Position numbers and translations under genes: made by a program. A model generated the notes under the pieces. The model was not told the DNA's origin. It searched no databases and worked only from the letters and a program-made list of their open reading frames with translations. From Thioalkalivibrio sp. (GTDB lineage Bacteria > Pseudomonadota > Gammaproteobacteria > Ectothiorhodospirales > Ectothiorhodospiraceae), in contig PWGH01000197.1 of the NCBI GenBank assembly GCA_003555285.1, forward strand, positions 1-11,401: a stretch of DNA of 11,401 nt, read 5' to 3'. This document shows positions 153 through 11,103 of the stretch, piece by piece. Each line of letters starts with the position of its first letter. Position 1 is the first letter of the stretch.

Positions 153-3100
153 ATGATCGAGAGGATCATCGAGTGGTCGCTGGAGAACCGGTTGCTGGTT
201 CTGCTGCTGACCGTCGTGTTCGTCGCCTGGGGCAGCTTTTCGCTGCGCCAGATGCCGCTGGACGCCATTCCCGACCTGTCGGACGTGCAGGTGATCGTGC
301 ACACCGCCTATCCCGGCCAGGCGCCGCAGGTGGTCGAGGATCAGGTCACCTACCCACTGTCCACCGCGCTGCTCGCCGTGCCGCAGGCGCGCGACGTGCG
401 CGGCTTCTCGATGTTCGGTGACTCGTATGTCTACGTGCTGTTCGAGGACGGCACCGACCCCTACTGGGCCCGGGCGCGGGTGCTCGAATACCTGAGTCAG
501 GTCGCCCCACGCCTGCCCGACGGCGCGCGCCCGGCGCTCGGCCCGGACGCGACCGGTGTCGGCTGGGTCTACCAGTACGCGCTGGTCGATCGCAGCGGGA
601 CGCTGGATCTTTCCGAATTGCGCTCGCTGCAGGACTGGTTTCTGAAGTTCGAGCTGCAGGCGGTGATGGGGGTCTCCGAGGTCGCCACCCTCGGCGGTAT
701 GGTCAAGCAGTACCAGGTGGTGCTCGATCCCAATCGGGCGCGTGCCTACGGCCTGACCCTGCCGCAAATCCGCACGGCGATCCGCAATGCGAACCAGGAG
801 GCCGGCGGCTCGGTGCTCGAGATGGCCGAGGCCGAGTACATGGTCCGCTCGCGCGGCTACCTCACCGGCATCGAGGACCTGCGCCTGGTGCCGGTGGGCC
901 TGGGCGCGGACGGCACGCCGATCCTGCTCGAGGACGTCGCCACGATCCGTCGGGGTCCGCAGGCCCGGCGCGGCATCGCCGAGCTCGACGGCGAGGGGGA
1001 AGTGGTCGGCGCGCTGGTGGTGATGCGCCACGGCGAGAATGCGCTTGCGACCATCGAACGGGTGAAGGCGCGCCTCGCCGAACTGCGCCCGGGTCTGCCG
1101 GCCGGGGTCGAGATCGTCGAGACCTACGACCGCTCGATCCTGATCCAGGAGTCGGTCGACAACCTGATCGGCAAGCTGCTGCAGGAGTTCGTGATCATCG
1201 CGCTGGTCTGCGTGGTCTTTCTGCTGCACCTGCGCTCGGCGCTGGTCGCGATCATCGCGCTGCCGATCGGGATCCTGGCGGCGCTCACGATCATGCAGGC
1301 GCAGGGCATCAACGCGAACATCATGTCGCTCGGCGGTATCGCGGTGACGATCGGGGCGATGGTCGATGCCGCGATCGTGATGGTCGAGAACCTGCACAAG
1401 CGCCTGGAACGCGCCCGCCCCGGCGAGGACCGCTGGCAGACCGTCGCGATCGCGGCCAAGGAGACCGGACGGCCGATCTTCTTCGCGCTGTTGATCATCG
1501 TGGTCAGCTTTCTGCCGCTGTTCACGCTACAGGGCCAGGAGGGGCGGATGTTCCAGCCGCTCGCCTTCACCGGCACCTATGCGATGGCGATGGCGGCGGG
1601 CCTGGGGATCACCCTGGTGCCGGTGCTGATGGGCTATCTGGTGCGCGGGCGGATTCGTCCGGAGGCTGCCCATCCGTTGAGCCGGCTGCTGATCGCGCTC
1701 TACCGGCCGGTGTTGCAGGGCCTGCTGCGCCACCCCTGGGTCACCGTGACCGGCGCGCTGCTGCTGGCCGCCAGCATGCTGTACCCGGCGAGCCAGCTCG
1801 GCAGCGAGTTCATGCCGGAACTCGACGAGGGCGATCTGATGTACATGCCCTCGCTGGAGCCGGGCGTCTCGATCGGCAAGGTGCGCGAGTTCCTGCAACA
1901 GACCGACCGTCTGATCCTGAGCGTGCCCGAGGTCGACCAGGTCTTCGGCAAGGCCGGGCGCGCCGAGACCGCCACCGACCCGGCGCCGATCGGCATGCTG
2001 GAGACGCTGATCCGCTTCAAGCCGCGGGACCAGTGGCGCGAGGGCATCACCAAGGCCGACATCATTCGCGAACTCGATGACGCGGTCCGTTTCCCGGGCG
2101 TGGCCAATGTCTGGGTGCCGCCGATCAAGACCCGCATCGACATGCTCGCGACCGGCATCCGCTCGCCGGTGGGCGTGAAGATCGCGGGCGCGGACCTCGC
2201 CGAGATCGAGCGGATCGGACGGGCGGTCGAGGCGGTGCTGCAGACGGTGCCGGGCACCGCCTCGGCCTACGCCGACCGGACCGCGACCGGGCGCTATGTC
2301 GAGATCGAGATCGACCGGCGCCGGGCGGCGCGCCACGGCGTCAGCGTCGCCGAGCTGCAGGGGGTCGTCCAGATGGCGGTGGGTGGCATGAACGTCAGCG
2401 AGAGCGTGGAGGGCCTGGAGCGGTATCCGATCAACCTGCGCTATCCGCAGGACGCGCGCGATTCGCTGGAGCGCCTGCGCGAGTTGCCGGTGGTGACCCC
2501 GAACGGGGCGCATCTGGCGTTGCAGGCGCTGGCGCGGGTCGAGATCGTCGACGGTCCGGCGATGATCCGGACCGAGAACGCCCGGCTGAACGGCTGGGTG
2601 GTGGTCGACGTGCGCGATCGCGATCTCGGGTCCTACGTCGCCGCGGCGCGCCAGGCGGTCAGCGAGCAGGTGGAACTGCCGGCCGGCTATTCGATCACCT
2701 GGTCCGGCCAGTACGAATACATGGAACGCGCGAAGGAGCGGCTGACCTGGGTGTTTCCGGTGACGCTGGTGCTGATCTTCCTGCTGCTCTACCTGTGTTT
2801 TCGCAGCGGCGCCGAGGCGCTGATGCTGATGGGCGCCTTGCCCTTCGCCGCGGTCGGCGGCGTCTGGCTGCTGCACTGGCTCGCCTACGACCTGTCGGTG
2901 GCGGTTGCGGCCGGCTTCATCCTGCTGTTCGGGCTGGCCGCCGAATTCGCCGTGGTGATGCTGATGTACATCCGTACCGCGGTCGAACAGAGCCGCCCCG
3001 CGACCCGCGAGCAGCTGCTCGCGGCGATCGTCGACGGTGCGGTGCTGCGGGTGCGCCCGAAGGCGATGACCTCGCTGACCGTGGTGCTCGGCCTGTCGCC

Positions 3101-3257
3101 GTTGCTGTTCGCGACCGGACCCGGCTCCGAGGCGATGCAGCGCATCGCGACCCCGGTGGTCGGCGGCATGATCACCGCGCCGCTCGTCTCGCTGCTGCTG
3201 ATCCCGGTGCTGTACTGGCTCTGGCAGCGCCGCGGCCTGCCGCGCGCGGCGGTCTGA
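153..3257 (+). CDS. cusA: CusA-type heavy-metal efflux RND pump (Cu(I)/Ag(I))
   Basis: Full-length inner-membrane RND transporter of 1034 residues, the usual size. It exports monovalent copper/silver from cytoplasm and periplasm through a CusB adaptor and an outer-membrane channel, driven by protons. Typical stretches are DLSDVQVIVHT (res 41-51), GDSYVYVLFEDGTDPYWAR (89-107) and LGPDATGVGW (129-138). The three methionines that bind metal in E. coli CusA (M573, M623, M672) align with M565 (LMYMP), M615 (IGML) and M664 (IDML), with the same spacing of 50 and 49. The proton-relay residues appear as D405 (GAMVDAAIVMVEN), E931 (LAAEF) and K970 (RVRPKAMT). Membrane segments lie near 11-30, in five stretches between 340 and 500, near 530-550, and in five between 865 and 1025. 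The start ATG is preceded by AGGGA at 142-146, six bases away, overlapping the end of the upstream gene. The N-terminus MIERIIEWS matches the family start (MIEWIIRRS in E. coli). Specificity for Cu/Ag rather than divalent metals is inferred from the methionine triad. Confidence 0.95.
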   Translation: MIERIIEWSLENRLLVLLLTVVFVAWGSFSLRQMPLDAIPDLSDVQVIVHTAYPGQAPQVVEDQVTYPLSTALLAVPQARDVRGFSMFGDSYVYVLFEDGTDPYWARARVLEYLSQVAPRLPDGARPALGPDATGVGWVYQYALVDRSGTLDLSELRSLQDWFLKFELQAVMGVSEVATLGGMVKQYQVVLDPNRARAYGLTLPQIRTAIRNANQEAGGSVLEMAEAEYMVRSRGYLTGIEDLRLVPVGLGADGTPILLEDVATIRRGPQARRGIAELDGEGEVVGALVVMRHGENALATIERVKARLAELRPGLPAGVEIVETYDRSILIQESVDNLIGKLLQEFVIIALVCVVFLLHLRSALVAIIALPIGILAALTIMQAQGINANIMSLGGIAVTIGAMVDAAIVMVENLHKRLERARPGEDRWQTVAIAAKETGRPIFFALLIIVVSFLPLFTLQGQEGRMFQPLAFTGTYAMAMAAGLGITLVPVLMGYLVRGRIRPEAAHPLSRLLIALYRPVLQGLLRHPWVTVTGALLLAASMLYPASQLGSEFMPELDEGDLMYMPSLEPGVSIGKVREFLQQTDRLILSVPEVDQVFGKAGRAETATDPAPIGMLETLIRFKPRDQWREGITKADIIRELDDAVRFPGVANVWVPPIKTRIDMLATGIRSPVGVKIAGADLAEIERIGRAVEAVLQTVPGTASAYADRTATGRYVEIEIDRRRAARHGVSVAELQGVVQMAVGGMNVSESVEGLERYPINLRYPQDARDSLERLRELPVVTPNGAHLALQALARVEIVDGPAMIRTENARLNGWVVVDVRDRDLGSYVAAARQAVSEQVELPAGYSITWSGQYEYMERAKERLTWVFPVTLVLIFLLLYLCFRSGAEALMLMGALPFAAVGGVWLLHWLAYDLSVAVAAGFILLFGLAAEFAVVMLMYIRTAVEQSRPATREQLLAAIVDGAVLRVRPKAMTSLTVVLGLSPLLFATGPGSEAMQRIATPVVGGMITAPLVSLLLIPVLYWLWQRRGLPRAAV

Positions 3258-3460: not shown

Positions 3461-4858
3461 ATGATCTTCAAGCCGTTCTACCTGGAAAGCCTGGGGCACG
3501 CCTCGTACTTCGTCGGCTCGGAGGAGACCGGCGAGGTTCTGGTCCTCGATGTGCGTCGCGATGTCGACGCCTACCTGCAGGAGGCCCAGACGCAGGGCAT
3601 GCGCCTGCGCTACGCCGCCGACAGCCACCAGCACAACGATTATCTCTCCGGCATCTGTGAACTGCCCGAGCGGGCCGACGTGCAGCTGTTGGCCGGTGCG
3701 CGCGCGCAACTCGGCTATCCCGTGCACTACATGGAAGACGGCGAGCGTCTGCGCATGGGCGAGGTCGAGTTCGAGGTGCTGCATACCCCGGGACATACGC
3801 CGGAACACATCTCGCTGCTCGTTTACGACCGCTCCCGCGGCGAGGCCCCGGCCTTGCTGCTCTCCGGCGGCGCGCTGCTGGTGAACGACATCGCGCGTCC
3901 CGATCTGCTCGGCGGCGAAGAGCAGACGCGAGCCGGCGCACGGGCCTTCTGCCATACGCTGCAGGAGAAGATCCTGACGCTCCCCGATCACGTGCCGGTG
4001 TATCCCACGCACGTGGCCGGATCCCTGTGCGGCGGCAACATCGGCAGCATGCTGTCGACCACCATCGGCTACGAGCGGCGGATGAACCGGCTGCTCGCGA
4101 ACCTGAGCGACACCGACGGCTTCGTCGAGCGCTGCCTGGAGCTGAAGGACCTGCCGACGGTCCCGCCCTACTGGCGCCGCATGCGCCAGCAGAACACCGA
4201 CGGGCCGGGCCGCCTCGGTGTGTTGCCCGAGCCGCCCGCGCTGCCGCCCGAGGCCTTCGAGCGCCGGAGCCGCGAGGCGCATACCTTCGTGATCGATGCC
4301 CGTTCGCCGGAGGCCTTTGCCGCGCATATCCCGGGCGCATTGAATGTCGCTGCGGGTACCCCCTTCAGCACCTGGGCGGGAACCGTCCTGCCTGAGGGCG
4401 CCCGTACGCTGCTGGTGGTGGAGCAGCCCGGCGATCTGCAGGATCTGTATTGGCAGCTCCTGCGCATCGGTTATGACCTGCCCAGCGGCTGGCTCGCCGG
4501 CGGCATGCTCGCCTGGCGGACCAGCGGCCGCGACCTCGAGCTGATGCCCCAATGGACGATCCACGACCTGCACCGGGCACGGGAGCGCGATCGCGATCTG
4601 CTGATCCTGGACGTGCGCCAGCCCGCCGAATGGTCCGCGGGCCATATCCCCGGCGCCCGCCACATCAGCGGCGGCGAGCTGCCCCAGCGTCTGGGCGAGG
4701 TGCCCCAGAAACAGCCGGTGGCCGTGATCTGCGGCAGCGGCTACCGCTCCTCGGTCAGCGCCAGCCTGCTCCAGCGCGAAGGCCGCGATCCGGTCTTCAA
4801 TGTGCTGGGCGGCATGACCGGCTGGCAAAACGCCGGCTACGAAACCGAAGCCGCGTAA
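3461..4858 (+). CDS. Metallo-beta-lactamase-fold / double rhodanese fusion (persulfide dioxygenase-like family)
   Basis: A 465-residue cytoplasmic protein. Residues ~1-260 form an MBL-fold domain resembling ETHE1/CstB-type persulfide dioxygenases, with HQHNDY at 56-61, GHTPEH at 111-116, SGGALLVNDIARPDLL at 135-150 and YPTH at 181-184. Residues ~265-360 and ~365-465 are two rhodanese domains. Only the second has the catalytic loop, CGSGYRS with Cys424; in the first the Cys is absent (LLVVEQPGD). Relatives act on glutathione persulfide or other sulfane sulfur. The canonical iron ligands His, His, Asp should be H56, H112 and the Asp of a TGD motif, but here the motif is SGG (G137). The last His of HxHxDH is Tyr61. 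Both changes also occur in some MBL-rhodanese relatives as I recall them, so this may be a subfamily with another metal or no oxygenase activity. The start is supported by GGAGG five bases upstream. It stands alone between cusA and a convergent kinase gene. Confidence 0.85.
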   Translation: MIFKPFYLESLGHASYFVGSEETGEVLVLDVRRDVDAYLQEAQTQGMRLRYAADSHQHNDYLSGICELPERADVQLLAGARAQLGYPVHYMEDGERLRMGEVEFEVLHTPGHTPEHISLLVYDRSRGEAPALLLSGGALLVNDIARPDLLGGEEQTRAGARAFCHTLQEKILTLPDHVPVYPTHVAGSLCGGNIGSMLSTTIGYERRMNRLLANLSDTDGFVERCLELKDLPTVPPYWRRMRQQNTDGPGRLGVLPEPPALPPEAFERRSREAHTFVIDARSPEAFAAHIPGALNVAAGTPFSTWAGTVLPEGARTLLVVEQPGDLQDLYWQLLRIGYDLPSGWLAGGMLAWRTSGRDLELMPQWTIHDLHRARERDRDLLILDVRQPAEWSAGHIPGARHISGGELPQRLGEVPQKQPVAVICGSGYRSSVSASLLQREGRDPVFNVLGGMTGWQNAGYETEAA

Positions 4859-4903: not shown

Positions 4904-4948
4904 GGTGGACCCGCTGCGCTTGGCCCACCCTACCTTGGCCCACCCTAC
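4904..4948. repeat. GTAGGGTGGGC-type palindromic repeat with a 15-bp tandem duplication
   Basis: GGTGGACC (4904-4911) and GGCCCACC (4922-4929) form an 8-bp imperfect palindrome around CGCTGCGCTT; the single mismatch becomes a G-U pair in the minus-strand transcript. The unit CTTGGCCCACCCTAC occurs twice in tandem (4919-4933 and 4934-4948) without a mismatch. Read on the minus strand the unit is GTAGGGTGGGCCAAG, very like the GTAGGGTGGGC...GCCCACC interspersed element common in gammaproteobacteria (from memory). It fills the gap between two convergent genes, and the second copy supplies the TAG stop codon of the sensor kinase. It may serve as a bidirectional transcription end, although no T-run is present. 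Confidence 0.65.
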
Positions 4949-6759
4949 GGGTGTCGGTAGGTGCCGGGCCGGGGCTCCTGGTTGCAGGGGATGCGGATGC
5001 TGTAGTGCGTACCGGGACCGCAGGTGACGGTCAGGCTGCCATTCACTTGTTGCACCAGGCCTTGGATCAGCCTCAGGCCGAGCGTGTGCGGGTGGGCCAA
5101 GTCGAGATCGTCGGGAAAGCCGACGCCATCGTCGATCACGTCCAGCCGAATCGCGCTGTCGGTCTGTTCCAGCGCCACTTCGAGCCGGCCGGCGCGCCCG
5201 TTCGGAAAGGCATGTTTCACCGCATTGGTGATCAATTCGACTGCGATGAGCCCCACGGTATCGGCCAGTCGCGCGGGGACGGTGATGGCTTCGCACCGGC
5301 AAACCACGGTGATGTTCTCGGCGAGTTCCAGTACCTCGGGCGCGAGCTTGCGGAGGTAGTCGTCGAGCCGGACGGTCGTGCTCGGATCCGAGGCGTTCAA
5401 TAAATCGTAGACGCCGGAAATGGCCAGCACCCGGGAATGAATCTCCTCCAAGGCGGTGATCGCATCCGGCGAGGACACCGTGGGGCGCATCAGCTGGATC
5501 ATGGCGCCGATCAGCGAAAAGCTGTTCTTGGCCCGGTGCTGCAGTTCGCGCAGCAGGACATTCTTCTCCTGCAACGAAACCTGCATGGCGTCCTCGGTCC
5601 TTTTCAGCCCGCCGATGTCGGTATGGGTGCCGAACATCCATTCCGGGACGCCCTGGGCATCGCGGGAGACGAGCTTGCCCTTGCCCAACAACCAGACCCA
5701 ATTCCCATTCTTATGGCGCATCCGGAATGCGCATTCATAGTGATCGCTCTTGTCCCGGAGATGATCCTTGAGGGCGGCGCTCACCCGCTCGACGTCATCT
5801 GGATGGACGAGCCGGAGGGCCATGTCCATGCCGTCCGTCAGCCACTCCGCCTGGTGATAGCCCAACATGCCGGCCCATTTCTCATTCACCACGAAGCGGC
5901 CGGTCTGTACGTGCCATTCCCAGGTCCCGACGTCTGCGCATGCAATGAGGTGGGCCAGGCGGCCCTGTTCCGCCCGGAGTGCCAGTTCCGTCTGTTTGCG
6001 GCCGGTGATGTCCTTGGCAAAGAAGGAAACCCCGACGATCTTGTCCTGAATGACGATCGGATGGGCATCGACCTCGAACCAACTGGTGCCCGAATCCCCC
6101 TCGACCGACTGCTCGAACACCAGATGGTGGTTCGACAGGGCCTGGTCCACCCGTTCCTTCCAAACCGGTCGGAGTGTGGATGGAAGGGCCTCCAGCAGGT
6201 TGTCGCCCGGACCGACCGCCACACCGGTGCAGGCCACGAACGTGCGCAGGAACACGGTGTTGGCGTAGAGGAGTTCGTGGGCGCGGTTGATCGCTCCGAT
6301 TGAATCGGTGGTGTTTCCCAGGATGGCGGAGAGCTTTGCGTTACTCTCCTGCAGGCGGCGTTGCTGTTCCTGGATGATCCGTTCCTTCTCGAACAGCCGT
6401 GCGGCCACCTGGATCGAGGCGTCCAGCGCCGGAGTGCCGGCCGTCTTCATCACATGGCCATACGATGAGACGTGCTCGGTCTGGGCCAGCACCTCGGGGG
6501 CCATGGTGTCGGACAGAAAAATGACCGGGACCTCGCGTTCGCGCAGGATCCGGGCGGCGGTCTCGGGGCCATTCAGCCCCGCACCCAGATCCATGTCCAT
6601 CAGGATCAGGTCGATTTCGGGGTGCGTGCGCAGGGTCTCGATCGCAGCCTCGCCGGAACGCGCCTGGAGGACCGAGTAACCATAGTGTTCCAGGGCCGCC
6701 TGTTCGGCCATGGCCGTGATGGATCGACCTTCGACCAGCAACAGCGTTTCACCACGCAT
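4945..6759 (-). CDS. Soluble hybrid sensor kinase: receiver - PAS - PAS - HisKA_2 - HATPase
   Basis: A 604-residue signalling protein with no membrane segment or signal peptide, so probably cytoplasmic. Residues 1-125 are a receiver domain with phospho-acceptor D55 (LILMDMDLG), S83 and K105 (VMKTAG). The usual acidic pair VED(E/D) reads VEGR (E10-G11), so one Mg-binding Asp is missing. PAS domains lie at about 138-258 (ending FFAKDITGRKQTE) and 265-388 (GTWEWHVQTGRF, ending FGTHTDIGGLKRTED); the ligand is not predictable. The histidine domain is HisKA_2 type, with LRELQHRAKNSFSLIGAM around H408. The ATPase domain has the N-box AVELITNAVKH (506-516) and DDGVGFP (543-549). Kinases of this group usually signal to a separate response regulator; none is visible nearby. 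The start ATG has only a weak AAGG six bases upstream, and no better in-frame start exists. The stop codon lies inside a repeat element. Confidence 0.9.
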   Translation of the reverse strand: MRGETLLLVEGRSITAMAEQAALEHYGYSVLQARSGEAAIETLRTHPEIDLILMDMDLGAGLNGPETAARILREREVPVIFLSDTMAPEVLAQTEHVSSYGHVMKTAGTPALDASIQVAARLFEKERIIQEQQRRLQESNAKLSAILGNTTDSIGAINRAHELLYANTVFLRTFVACTGVAVGPGDNLLEALPSTLRPVWKERVDQALSNHHLVFEQSVEGDSGTSWFEVDAHPIVIQDKIVGVSFFAKDITGRKQTELALRAEQGRLAHLIACADVGTWEWHVQTGRFVVNEKWAGMLGYHQAEWLTDGMDMALRLVHPDDVERVSAALKDHLRDKSDHYECAFRMRHKNGNWVWLLGKGKLVSRDAQGVPEWMFGTHTDIGGLKRTEDAMQVSLQEKNVLLRELQHRAKNSFSLIGAMIQLMRPTVSSPDAITALEEIHSRVLAISGVYDLLNASDPSTTVRLDDYLRKLAPEVLELAENITVVCRCEAITVPARLADTVGLIAVELITNAVKHAFPNGRAGRLEVALEQTDSAIRLDVIDDGVGFPDDLDLAHPHTLGLRLIQGLVQQVNGSLTVTCGPGTHYSIRIPCNQEPRPGTYRHP

Positions 6760-6889: not shown

Positions 6890-7675
6890 TCAGCGTTCGC
6901 GTTCGAGCCCTTGGTTGGCGCCGTTCGGGATGGCCCCAACCGGTGCCAGCGGTAGATGCAGCACGAAGGTGGTACTGCCATGTTCCGACTCGACGGCAAT
7001 ATCCCCGCCGTGCGCCTCGACGATGGACCGGGTGATCGCGAGCCCCAGACCCGCCCCTTCGCCGTGGCCGGAGCGTTCGGGATCGACCCGGTGAAACCGG
7101 TCGAAGAGCAGCGGCAGCCGATCCGGCGCAATGGTCGGCCCCGGGTTGCGCACGCTAAGCCGTGCCCGATCGCCTTGGGCCTTGATCGAGATGTCCACGC
7201 AGCCTCCGGCCGGAGTGTGACGCAGGGCGTTCGACAAGAGGTTCGACAGCGCGCGGCGGCGCAGCAGGTCGAGTTCGAGATCGGCGGCGGTGAGCACCCC
7301 CTCGGGTTCCTTGACCTTGCCCCGGCGCAGCAGGCTGCGCACCCGCGCGAGCAATTCGGAAAAGGCAAAGGGCTTGACCAGGTAATCGTCGGCCCCCAGT
7401 TCCAGGCCGCGGACCCGATCCTCGACCTGATCGCGCGCGGTCAGAAACAGCACGGGCATCGCGCTTCCGGACAGCCGCAGCGCCTGCAGCAGTGCCCAGC
7501 CGTCCAGCCGGGGCAGCATCACGTCGAGCACCAGCAGATCGTGGTCGCCCGTGGTGGCCAGATGGAGGCCATCGAGGCCGTCGCGGGCCAGATCGACCCG
7601 GAATCCGGCCTCGCTCAGACCCTTGCGTAGGTAGTCGCCGGTCTCCGGTTCGTCTTCGACGATCAGGATCTTCAC
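6890..7675 (-). CDS. Chimeric remnant: CusR-like receiver fused in frame to a CusS-like kinase ATPase domain
   Basis: A 261-residue open frame. Residues 1-~118 are an OmpR/CusR-type receiver: [20 protein letters not shown], acceptor D51 ([13 protein letters not shown]), T79 and K101 ([22 protein letters not shown]). Residues ~128-141 ([14 protein letters not shown]) are the beginning of the regulator's effector domain. From residue ~142 it becomes the ATPase domain of a heavy-metal sensor kinase: [14 protein letters not shown] (N-box, N149), [21 protein letters not shown] and [20 protein letters not shown]. Missing are the winged helix, the kinase's membrane and periplasmic parts, HAMP and the phosphorylated His. 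Regulators of this type are ~225 residues and kinases ~450-470, so about 1.3-1.4 kb would have been lost. The join falls where both parents typically read LLRR(R)A. The start is a GTG with no clear ribosome site, chosen because the family begins M-[KR]-I-L-[IV]-V-E-D-[ED]. It probably once controlled the nearby cus genes. It cannot bind DNA or autophosphorylate in the usual way, so it is perhaps a pseudogene despite its open frame. Confidence 0.85.
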
Positions 7676-9231: not shown

Positions 9232-9945
9232 CTAGGCGCCCTCGAGCGCGAGCTCGGCGAAGCTTGTCACCACCGGGATTCCGAGGGCCTCCAGCGGCGC
9301 ATTACCGGGGCGGTGCACCCCGGCCACGGCCAACCCCGCCGTGCGGGCGGCCGCCAGTTCGGGTTCCAGATCGGAGAGGAACAGGATCTCGGCCGGGGCC
9401 AGCCCGATGGCCTCGGCGATGTGCCGGTAGGAGTCCGGCTCGGTTTTCGCCCCAGTGCGGGTATCGAAGAAGCCCCGGAAGCGGGATCGGAGATCGCCCG
9501 CGACGGTGTGGCCGAAGAACAGGTCCTGCGCCTCAACCGAACCCGACGAATACACGTACACGGGCAGGCCGGATTGCGCCCAGCCCGCGAGCGCGGCAAC
9601 GGCATCGTCGTACACGTGCGCCTTCAGGGCGCCGCTGGCATAGCCGCCGCGCCAGATCATGCCCTGCAGGGCCTTCAGCGGCGGTGCCTTGCGATCGGCA
9701 TCCAGCCAGTCGATCAGCAGGGTGGCGACCGCGGCCGGCGGCGCATCGGACGGCAGACCGCCCAGGGTGCGCGCCTCGGCCAGCAGCGCGGCGACCTCGG
9801 GGGCCTCGGCGTGCTCGGTGACGAAGGCGGCCAGCCGTGCTCGCGCATACGGAAACAGCACGTCCTTCACGAAGGACACCGAGCCCACCGTGCCCTCGAT
9901 GTCGGTCAGGATCGCGCGGGCGCGCATCGGTTCGGGTGTCGGCAT
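9232..9945 (-). CDS. mtnC: Enolase-phosphatase E1 (methionine salvage)
   Basis: A bifunctional HAD-family enzyme. It converts 2,3-diketo-5-methylthiopentyl-1-phosphate to the enol form and dephosphorylates it to acireductone, the substrate of MtnD. The 237-residue product begins MPTPEPMRARAILTDIEGT. Visible motifs are DIEGT (15-19, nucleophile D15), VSFVKDVLFPYA, the second HAD motif SSGS (133-136), K167 in GAKTEPDSY, and the metal-binding SDLEPE (191-196). Length is close to the ~229-residue E. coli-type family. The same frame extends 36 codons further upstream into mtnD, but that part (Pro/Ser/Arg rich) is not family-like. I choose the ATG at 9945, which follows the mtnD stop by 10 bp with a weak GAGCGG ribosome site overlapping that stop. 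An alternative start is M7. Confidence 0.93.
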   Translation of the reverse strand: MPTPEPMRARAILTDIEGTVGSVSFVKDVLFPYARARLAAFVTEHAEAPEVAALLAEARTLGGLPSDAPPAAVATLLIDWLDADRKAPPLKALQGMIWRGGYASGALKAHVYDDAVAALAGWAQSGLPVYVYSSGSVEAQDLFFGHTVAGDLRSRFRGFFDTRTGAKTEPDSYRHIAEAIGLAPAEILFLSDLEPELAAARTAGLAVAGVHRPGNAPLEALGIPVVTSFAELALEGA

Positions 9946-9955
9946 CGACGTCCGC

Positions 9956-10480
9956 TCAGGCCTCGCCATGCGCCGGGAAACGGGCGGCGATGGCGTCACC
10001 CGTGAAGGTGGCGACCCAGCCTTCGGGATTGCTGAACAGGCGCAACGCGGCAAAGGCCGGGCGCGTGCCCATGTCGAACCAGTGCCGGGTGCCGGCCGGC
10101 ACGCTGATCAGGTCGCCCGCGGCGACCTCCACATGCAGGACCTCGTCGCCCAGGTGCAGGAAGAAGGATCCGCCGCCGCTCAGCATCAGCCGGCATTCGT
10201 CCTCGGCGTGGGTGTGCTCGGCAAGGAACTTCTCCCGCATCGTTGCGTGATTGGGGGTCTCGGGGGTCACGGCGACCACGTCGGCGGTGGTGTAGCCGAA
10301 CTGCTGCTTCAGGTCCTCGATGATCGGGCCCAGGGCCTCCAGGCTGCGATCCTCCGGCAGACTGCGGCGTTCGAACCGGATGCCGCGGCGGTCGAGTTCG
10401 GCCGTGATCCCGGCCGGGTCCACCACGCGTAGCTGGGGGTTGGCGGGTTGGTCGTCGGCATAGATGGACAACTGGCTCAT
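9956..10480 (-). CDS. mtnD: Acireductone dioxygenase (methionine salvage)
   Basis: A cupin enzyme that oxidises acireductone with O2. The Fe form gives formate and the 2-keto precursor of methionine; the Ni form gives methylthiopropionate, formate and CO. The 174-residue product begins MSQLSIYADDQP. The metal ligands are visible: H89 and H91 in EHTHAEDE, E95, and H133 in AGTRHWFDMG. The 44-residue spacing from first to last His equals that of the Klebsiella enzyme (H96 to H140). The ATG at 10480 overlaps the mtnB stop as ATGA, which indicates translational coupling, and has AGGA seven bases upstream. An upstream ATG ten codons earlier lies inside mtnB and is unlikely. Confidence 0.95.
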   Translation of the reverse strand: MSQLSIYADDQPANPQLRVVDPAGITAELDRRGIRFERRSLPEDRSLEALGPIIEDLKQQFGYTTADVVAVTPETPNHATMREKFLAEHTHAEDECRLMLSGGGSFFLHLGDEVLHVEVAAGDLISVPAGTRHWFDMGTRPAFAALRLFSNPEGWVATFTGDAIAARFPAHGEA

Positions 10481-11103
10481 CGGCGGATCCTGAGTTCTTC
10501 GAGCAGGCAAGTGAGTAGGAATTCCAGCGCGAGAACATGGCGATAGGCCTCGTTCACCGTGGCGCCCCAGACATAGAGGCCGTGCCCCGCGAGCAGGAAG
10601 CTGCGGGCCGGGGAGGAAAAACTGCCGGCGGCCTCGATGCGCCGGGTCAGCGCCGGGATGTCCTGGTCATTGCCATGCACATCGATCGTCAGGCGCCCGG
10701 TGTGTGTGGTCTGACCGGCCAGGGCCTTTTGCAGTTCGAAGCCCTCGAGCACGAGGACGCCGTCGGCGGCCGCGATCCGGGACAGCACCGTCGCCGCCAT
10801 CGAATGGATGTGCAGCACCGCGCCGATGCCGGGATCGTGCCGGTACAGCCCCAGGTGCAGTGGCGTCTCGGCCGAGGTCCCGGCCGCGTAGGCGCCTTGG
10901 AGTGGGATGACCAGCACGTCGCTCTCGCGCAGGGCGGCCTTGTCGGCGCCGGATCGGGTGATCGCGACGCGCTGTTCATCCAGGCGGACCGAGAAGTTGC
11001 CGCTGGTCGCCGGGACCAGGTTCCGGGTTCCCAGATCCCGAACCACCTGAACCAATCGGACCAGCGCGGGGCTGCGGGCGGTGACGGGCGGCGAGAGGCT
11101 CAT
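10477..11103 (-). CDS. mtnB: Methylthioribulose-1-phosphate dehydratase (methionine salvage)
   Basis: A class II aldolase-fold zinc enzyme that dehydrates 5-methylthioribulose-1-phosphate to the diketone used by MtnC. The 208-residue product shows LVPATSGNFSVRL (29-41), the catalytic-type Glu79 in SAETPLH, zinc ligands H98 and H100 in HIHS, a third His174 in AGHGLYVWG, and EGFELQKALAG (120-130), all typical of MtnB. The start ATG at 11103 has AGGA six bases upstream. It is first of the mtnB-mtnD-mtnC cluster. The remaining pathway genes (mtnA, mtnP or mtnN) are not in the window. Confidence 0.95.
   Translation of the reverse strand: MSLSPPVTARSPALVRLVQVVRDLGTRNLVPATSGNFSVRLDEQRVAITRSGADKAALRESDVLVIPLQGAYAAGTSAETPLHLGLYRHDPGIGAVLHIHSMAATVLSRIAAADGVLVLEGFELQKALAGQTTHTGRLTIDVHGNDQDIPALTRRIEAAGSFSSPARSFLLAGHGLYVWGATVNEAYRHVLALEFLLTCLLEELRIRR

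Follow-up and report, generated by a model that had tools for sequence, protein, structure and literature searches.

The window analysed here, that is the whole stretch of 11,401 nucleotides from contig PWGH01000197.1 of a Thioalkalivibrio sp. assembly, contains an open reading frame in which the beginning of a CusR-type response regulator is fused to the end of a CusS-type histidine kinase (Table 1). Just downstream of this frame lies a kinase of 604 amino acids composed of a receiver, a PAS_3 domain and a HisKA_2/HATPase unit (4945-6759, minus strand), and a rhodanese protein (3461-4858, plus strand) is encoded between this kinase and the CusA-type pump. In its N-terminal part, the rhodanese protein resembles hydroxyacylglutathione hydrolase, with a weak match to a bifunctional sulfur transferase/dioxygenase as well. 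Three overlapping frames at 9232-11103 (minus strand) encode a HAD hydrolase, an acireductone dioxygenase (ARD) and a class II aldolase, and presumably form a methionine-salvage operon. A search for CusR boxes with a consensus sequence gave two matches at three mismatches against a chance expectation of 1.21 and was rejected as a line of evidence.

Table 1. Coordinates of the chimeric frame, of its parts and of the efflux pump gene in the window
Feature	Position	Strand	Basis
Chimeric ORF, 261 aa, GTG start, stop included	6890..7675	minus	ORF list
CusR-type receiver domain, residues 3-113, with D51, T79 and K101	7337..7669	minus	Pfam + alignment
Residues 114-142, comprising the linker and the beginning of the former CusR effector domain up to the join	7250..7336	minus	
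Join, three codons CGC CGC GCG = RRA, residues 140-142	7250..7258	minus	
CusS-type HATPase_c, N-box onwards, residues 143-244; about 44 domain-start residues absent	6944..7249	minus	
C-terminal tail, residues 245-261	6893..6943	minus	
CusA/CzcA-type heavy-metal efflux RND pump	153..3257	plus	Pfam, NCBIfam

Considering its domain composition, the frame matches two Pfam domains alone, Response_reg at residues 3-113 (E 1.2e-27) and HATPase_c at residues 140-244 (E 7.8e-28); neither a winged-helix (Trans_reg_C), HAMP or HisKA domain nor a sensor domain was detected by Pfam in the chimera. In NCBIfam, the first 144 residues correspond to positions 1-141 of the 218 positions of the CusR-type family TIGR01387, and the rear runs to the final position of the CusS-type family TIGR01386 (457 of 457), both scores falling below the family cut-offs (195.6 bits vs 279.2 for CusR, 150.3 bits vs 292.55 for CusS). 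The original prediction had described a chimera of a CusR-type receiver and a CusS-type kinase end that has lost the DNA-binding, sensor and phospho-His parts; the exact limits of the frame, Pfam and NCBIfam bear out both statements, and the chimera is real and was largely read correctly. D51, T79 and K101 of the receiver, which we take to be its phosphorylation-site residues, are invariant across the alignment with homologues. The C-terminal tail has about the same length as that of the Thioalkalivibrio CusS P0121 and is therefore probably the original end of CusS. Compared with an intact heavy-metal two-component tandem of CusR (TIGR01387) and CusS (TIGR01386), the chimera preserves the order cusR-cusS, and its two halves can each be assigned clearly to one partner. 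It is, however, a single gene rather than two, and it has lost the winged helix, the sensor, the membrane parts, HAMP, the phospho-His domain and the first part of the catalytic domain.

Lineage of the two halves, intact pairs and the join

Both halves were observed to match the same lineage. In a search with the entire chimera, with the 120 best of 7999 scored proteins listed, the top named hits were CusR proteins of Thioalkalivibrio, from T. paradoxus (81% over 63% of the query), T. nitratireducens (80% over 63%) and Thioalkalivibrio sp. (89% over 53%). For the rear half, the best match among those listed is a partial CusS from a Thioalkalivibrio metagenome-assembled genome (68% over 97%, tail included). 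Such a common lineage is expected for a deletion within one locus.

We then compared the chimera with the intact loci of relatives. The 151 loci fetched were mostly picked by similarity to the query and do not represent a random sample; 23 of them had no CusR match and the others correspond to 112 distinct loci, 93 of which carry a same-strand CusS match downstream of CusR. In these 93 pairs the distance between the two join points ranges from 1272 to 2018 bases (1272-1491 in 92 pairs, 2018 in the remaining one), and no collapsed pair was found among them. The other 19 loci comprise 12 with less than 2 kb of downstream DNA and 7 with 2.4-8 kb in which no CusS match was found.

The join itself falls in a motif, RRA (residues 140-142), which is compatible with both DLLRRRA in CusR and LMLRRAL in CusS. 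Close regulators read DLLRRRAT (P0006) and DLMRRRAT (P0004) near this place, and the close kinase at the join is P0121, a partial kinase of 264 amino acids. With either regulator and P0121 as parents, the run shared at the join amounts to three residues, and a run of at least three is found at about 0.15% of the possible joins (exactly three at 0.14%, four at 0.008%). When the kinase P0125 replaces P0121, 0.18% of the possible joins have a three-residue run; if P0012, whose sequence has V instead of A, is taken as the CusR parent, the run shared at the join drops to 0. At the DNA level, the codons at 7258-7250 make a repeat of about 9 bases possible, the true parental DNA not having been found. 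A strong repeat hotspot was considered at this site and rejected: an in-phase repeat of at least 9 bases occurs there in 3 of 87 intact pairs vs 0.9% of 16,980 control window pairs, a slight excess only.

The original prediction had attributed the chimera to an in-frame deletion within an adjacent cusR-cusS pair, and this proposal gains support from the common lineage of the parents, the spacing of 1.27-1.49 kb in 92 of 93 pairs and the residues shared at the join. Since the halves are of the same lineage and relatives have CusS downstream at such a spacing, we infer that the internal deletion of a tandem cusR-cusS pair is the best origin. According to the mechanism that we propose, the break would have occurred in the codons of the short motif common to CusR and CusS, and the same reading phase on both sides would have put the two frames in register; a repeat of at most about 9 bases would likely have served for slippage or RecA-independent recombination. 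Provided that both parents carried these codons in the same phase, the exchange would preserve the frame, and no selection is then required to account for its being open.

Truncation, age and predicted product

The kinase part of the chimera is shorter than its domain assignment suggests. Indeed, the Pfam PF02518 match begins at about the N-box, and alignment with the intact CusS fragment P0122 places the start of the kinase part at about the equivalent of its A68. AlphaFold models this fragment (mean pLDDT 86.4) with the following elements ahead of that point: a strand (24-27), two helices (28-38 and 40-46), a further pair of strands (49-54, 57-60) and the opening turns of the N-box helix (residues 62-67 of a helix spanning 62-79). 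Nothing in the chimera corresponds to P0122 residues 24-67, which make up about 44 of the 147 residues that P0122 has from position 24 onwards, so that the chimera has no complete CA domain of the CusS type. The conserved ATPase boxes announced by the original prediction are all present, but the ATPase domain that carries them is incomplete. In the same way, the catalytic core of Escherichia coli CusS (PDB 7zp0 chain E; 54% identity over 106 alignment columns, rmsd 2.1) has residues ahead of the N-box which the chimera does not have. The AlphaFold model of the chimera itself is weak (mean pLDDT 77.4, pTM 0.55), with receiver residues 80-100 scoring below 50, the former CusR strand region drawn within one long helix (130-153) and no strands in place of the lost catalytic ones; we gave it no weight as functional evidence. 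The likely product is a receiver attached to a broken, presumably inactive catalytic domain. A working ATPase appears doubtful, and at most the intact receiver would survive. More generally, this case illustrates how domain searches may make a deletion remnant resemble a novel signalling design: the Pfam HATPase_c match, starting at about the N-box, conceals that nearly one third of the catalytic domain is gone.

Decay of the two halves was considered and rejected, no sign of it being seen. The receiver departs from three columns conserved at 95% or more (E11, K18 and R26), the mean being 0.77 over 117 sequences chosen by similarity to the query; of the 116 homologues, 1 exceeds this number and 8 equal it. 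No departure from columns conserved at 90% or more was seen in the kinase half, for a mean of 0.75. These data are compatible with a recent event. The chimera is either recent or retained, its single sequence fitting both, and selection for some role stays conceivable given an open frame and two halves without decay.

Taken together, we propose that this gene is probably what remains of a deletion of about 1.3 kb between cusR and the following cusS and that it most likely represents a non-working remnant, acting at most as a weak phosphate sink. The product would consist of an intact receiver still able to accept phosphate, carried by a catalytic domain without its first strands and helices, and it would be deprived of metal sensing, autophosphorylation and DNA binding. 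Alternatively, the organism could possess an intact cusR-cusS pair of which the contig skips the middle through an assembly or library artefact. The sequence indeed rests on one contig, and five of the six other chimeras described below are single-member, single-contig proteins. We consider this explanation unlikely: the putative repeat at the join measures about 9 bases, which is shorter than usual assembly words, and the GC3 values of the front half (0.84) and of the rear half (0.79, slightly below) are to be compared with 0.81-0.93 for five neighbouring genes. The chimera also belongs to a cluster of two member sequences, which nevertheless derive from one contig and thus bring no independent proof.

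A working chimera, in which the receiver would regulate the residual GHKL domain or serve as a decoy draining phosphate from another metal kinase, seems very unlikely. It would agree with the retention of D51, T79 and K101, with a kinase half free of departures from conserved columns and with the existence of an established design, that of REC-controlled histidine kinases such as LvrB, described in the accessible text of PMC13269768 as frequent and having LvrB as their prototype. LvrB of Leptospira (PDB 8vc9), like the chimera, has a receiver and kinase parts in one chain, and LvrB chains were the best by E-value in a Foldseek search with the chimera, where they matched as separate parts only (TM-score 0.39, rmsd 29). 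However, LvrB is a histidine kinase (PMC13269768, accessible text), whereas the chimera has no HisKA, thus no phospho-His domain, and its catalytic domain is cut. Moreover, the same join was found in none of the 120 proteins listed for each search (whole query and rear half), and most of the receiver is gone from P0124, a related chimera, so that receiver retention is not a common trait. The gating of a GHKL ATPase by the receiver, put forward in the original prediction, is therefore left unsupported by a truncated catalytic start and by relatives among which none listed shares the join.

Other CusR-CusS chimeras and wider searches

Among the 356 proteins fetched, 7 match both CusR and CusS, the present chimera included, and they show seven different pairs of end points. 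In each of the other six (P0002, P0028, P0124, P0269, P0270 and P0273), the start of CusR is fused in frame to the end of CusS. A receiver and HATPase_c occur together in 2 of the 119 further hits listed with the full chimera as query, P0002, which additionally retains most of the winged helix, and P0028. For the rear half, precomputed Pfam domains show this pair in 0 of the 119 further hits listed. P0124 (182 amino acids), found by alignment and close to Thioalkalivibrio, consists of about 23 residues of CusR followed by CusS; its first 23 residues are identical to those of several CusR, including P0030 of Thioalkalivibrio sp., and its rear shares 121 of 158 residues (77%) with P0121. The P0028 search provided P0269, P0270 and P0273, which combine a receiver with larger CusS parts that include HAMP, HisKA and HATPase_c. 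In P0270 (478 amino acids, 15 member sequences) the CusS part begins ahead of HAMP, and this protein is perhaps a kept chimera, since it is the only one of the seven with more than two members.

Seven chimeras with seven pairs of end points indicate that the cusR-cusS collapse recurs. From these sequences it looks like a recurring accident rather than an architecture, and the present gene is most likely ordinary in kind, one more in-frame fusion of adjacent two-component genes. Protein searches reveal in-frame collapses only, those out of frame being invisible to them. A set of chimeras with differing joins could be used to gauge the frequency of in-frame fusion of adjacent two-component genes, and such fusions are a possible raw material for REC-controlled kinases.

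A stronger reading would be that tandem cusR-cusS pairs collapse frequently and are sometimes selected, chimeras that keep the promoter and the receiver damping or silencing the copper response as phosphate sinks, with the present one being recent. The seven different joins among the fetched proteins, two of which are near Thioalkalivibrio, are compatible with it, and we regard this reading as highly improbable. As for an established receiver-HATPase architecture of which the chimera would be a member, its probability is negligible: P0028 (302 amino acids) likewise shows Response_reg and HATPase_c as its sole Pfam domains above the cut-off, but its join lies elsewhere, with more of the catalytic domain retained, its halves match a separate intact CusR (P0262, 85%) and CusS (P0241, 91%), and its own join is absent among the 119 others listed for it, including the five proteins with a repeated receiver or both parts (P0001, P0269, P0270, P0273 and P0003). 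The database search for receiver-HATPase_c proteins of about 260 residues, suggested by the original prediction, thus returned P0028, with another join, and the join of the present chimera in 0 of 119 other proteins for the whole query and 0 of 119 for the rear half, each search covering the best 120 of 7999 scored proteins, from which rarer or more distant proteins with the same join could escape.

Wider searches were conducted in genomes and plasmids. With the chimera as query, matches were obtained in 15 of 150 genomes at E 1e-50. Further searches for relatives matched 2 of 20 genomes at 1e-60, 2 of 5 at 1e-70 and 0 of 1; at 1e-63 none of 369 genomes matched (at most 7 candidates being scored in each of the 20 genomes listed). 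A DNA search matched 16 of 369 genomes at 1e-50. The neighbouring transglycosylase, used as query, weakly matched 5 of 5 genomes and, in a larger set, 336 of 369, the two best at 47 and 51% identity. At least 5000 plasmid records match, and in 74 of 5000 one place covers at least 80% of the query; a regulator together with a second kinase-type feature is named in 14 of the 25 rows listed, five of which were read. Plasmid H1 carries the kinase and the regulator as separate genes, and in H9, H14 and H22 the match lies inside single genes of about 3.5-4.9 kb. No short gene like the chimera was found in these four annotated loci; in H8 the matching region has no annotation.

Two-component gene fusions are reportedly the subject of work by Cock and Whitworth (2007). 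No published CusR-CusS chimera was found in the literature, as judged by titles and abstract starts. In the accessible text of the sources, adjacent two-component genes are known to fuse (PMC4558063, PMC8175716), a census in archaea gives 445 proteins with HisKA, HATPase and an N-terminal receiver (PMC5847659), and a survey devoted to gene organisation left out HATPase domains devoid of a phosphotransfer domain (PMC3018481). Finally, in P0003 (276 amino acids), a CusR, part of the receiver is repeated, which represents a tandem duplication within the same gene family.
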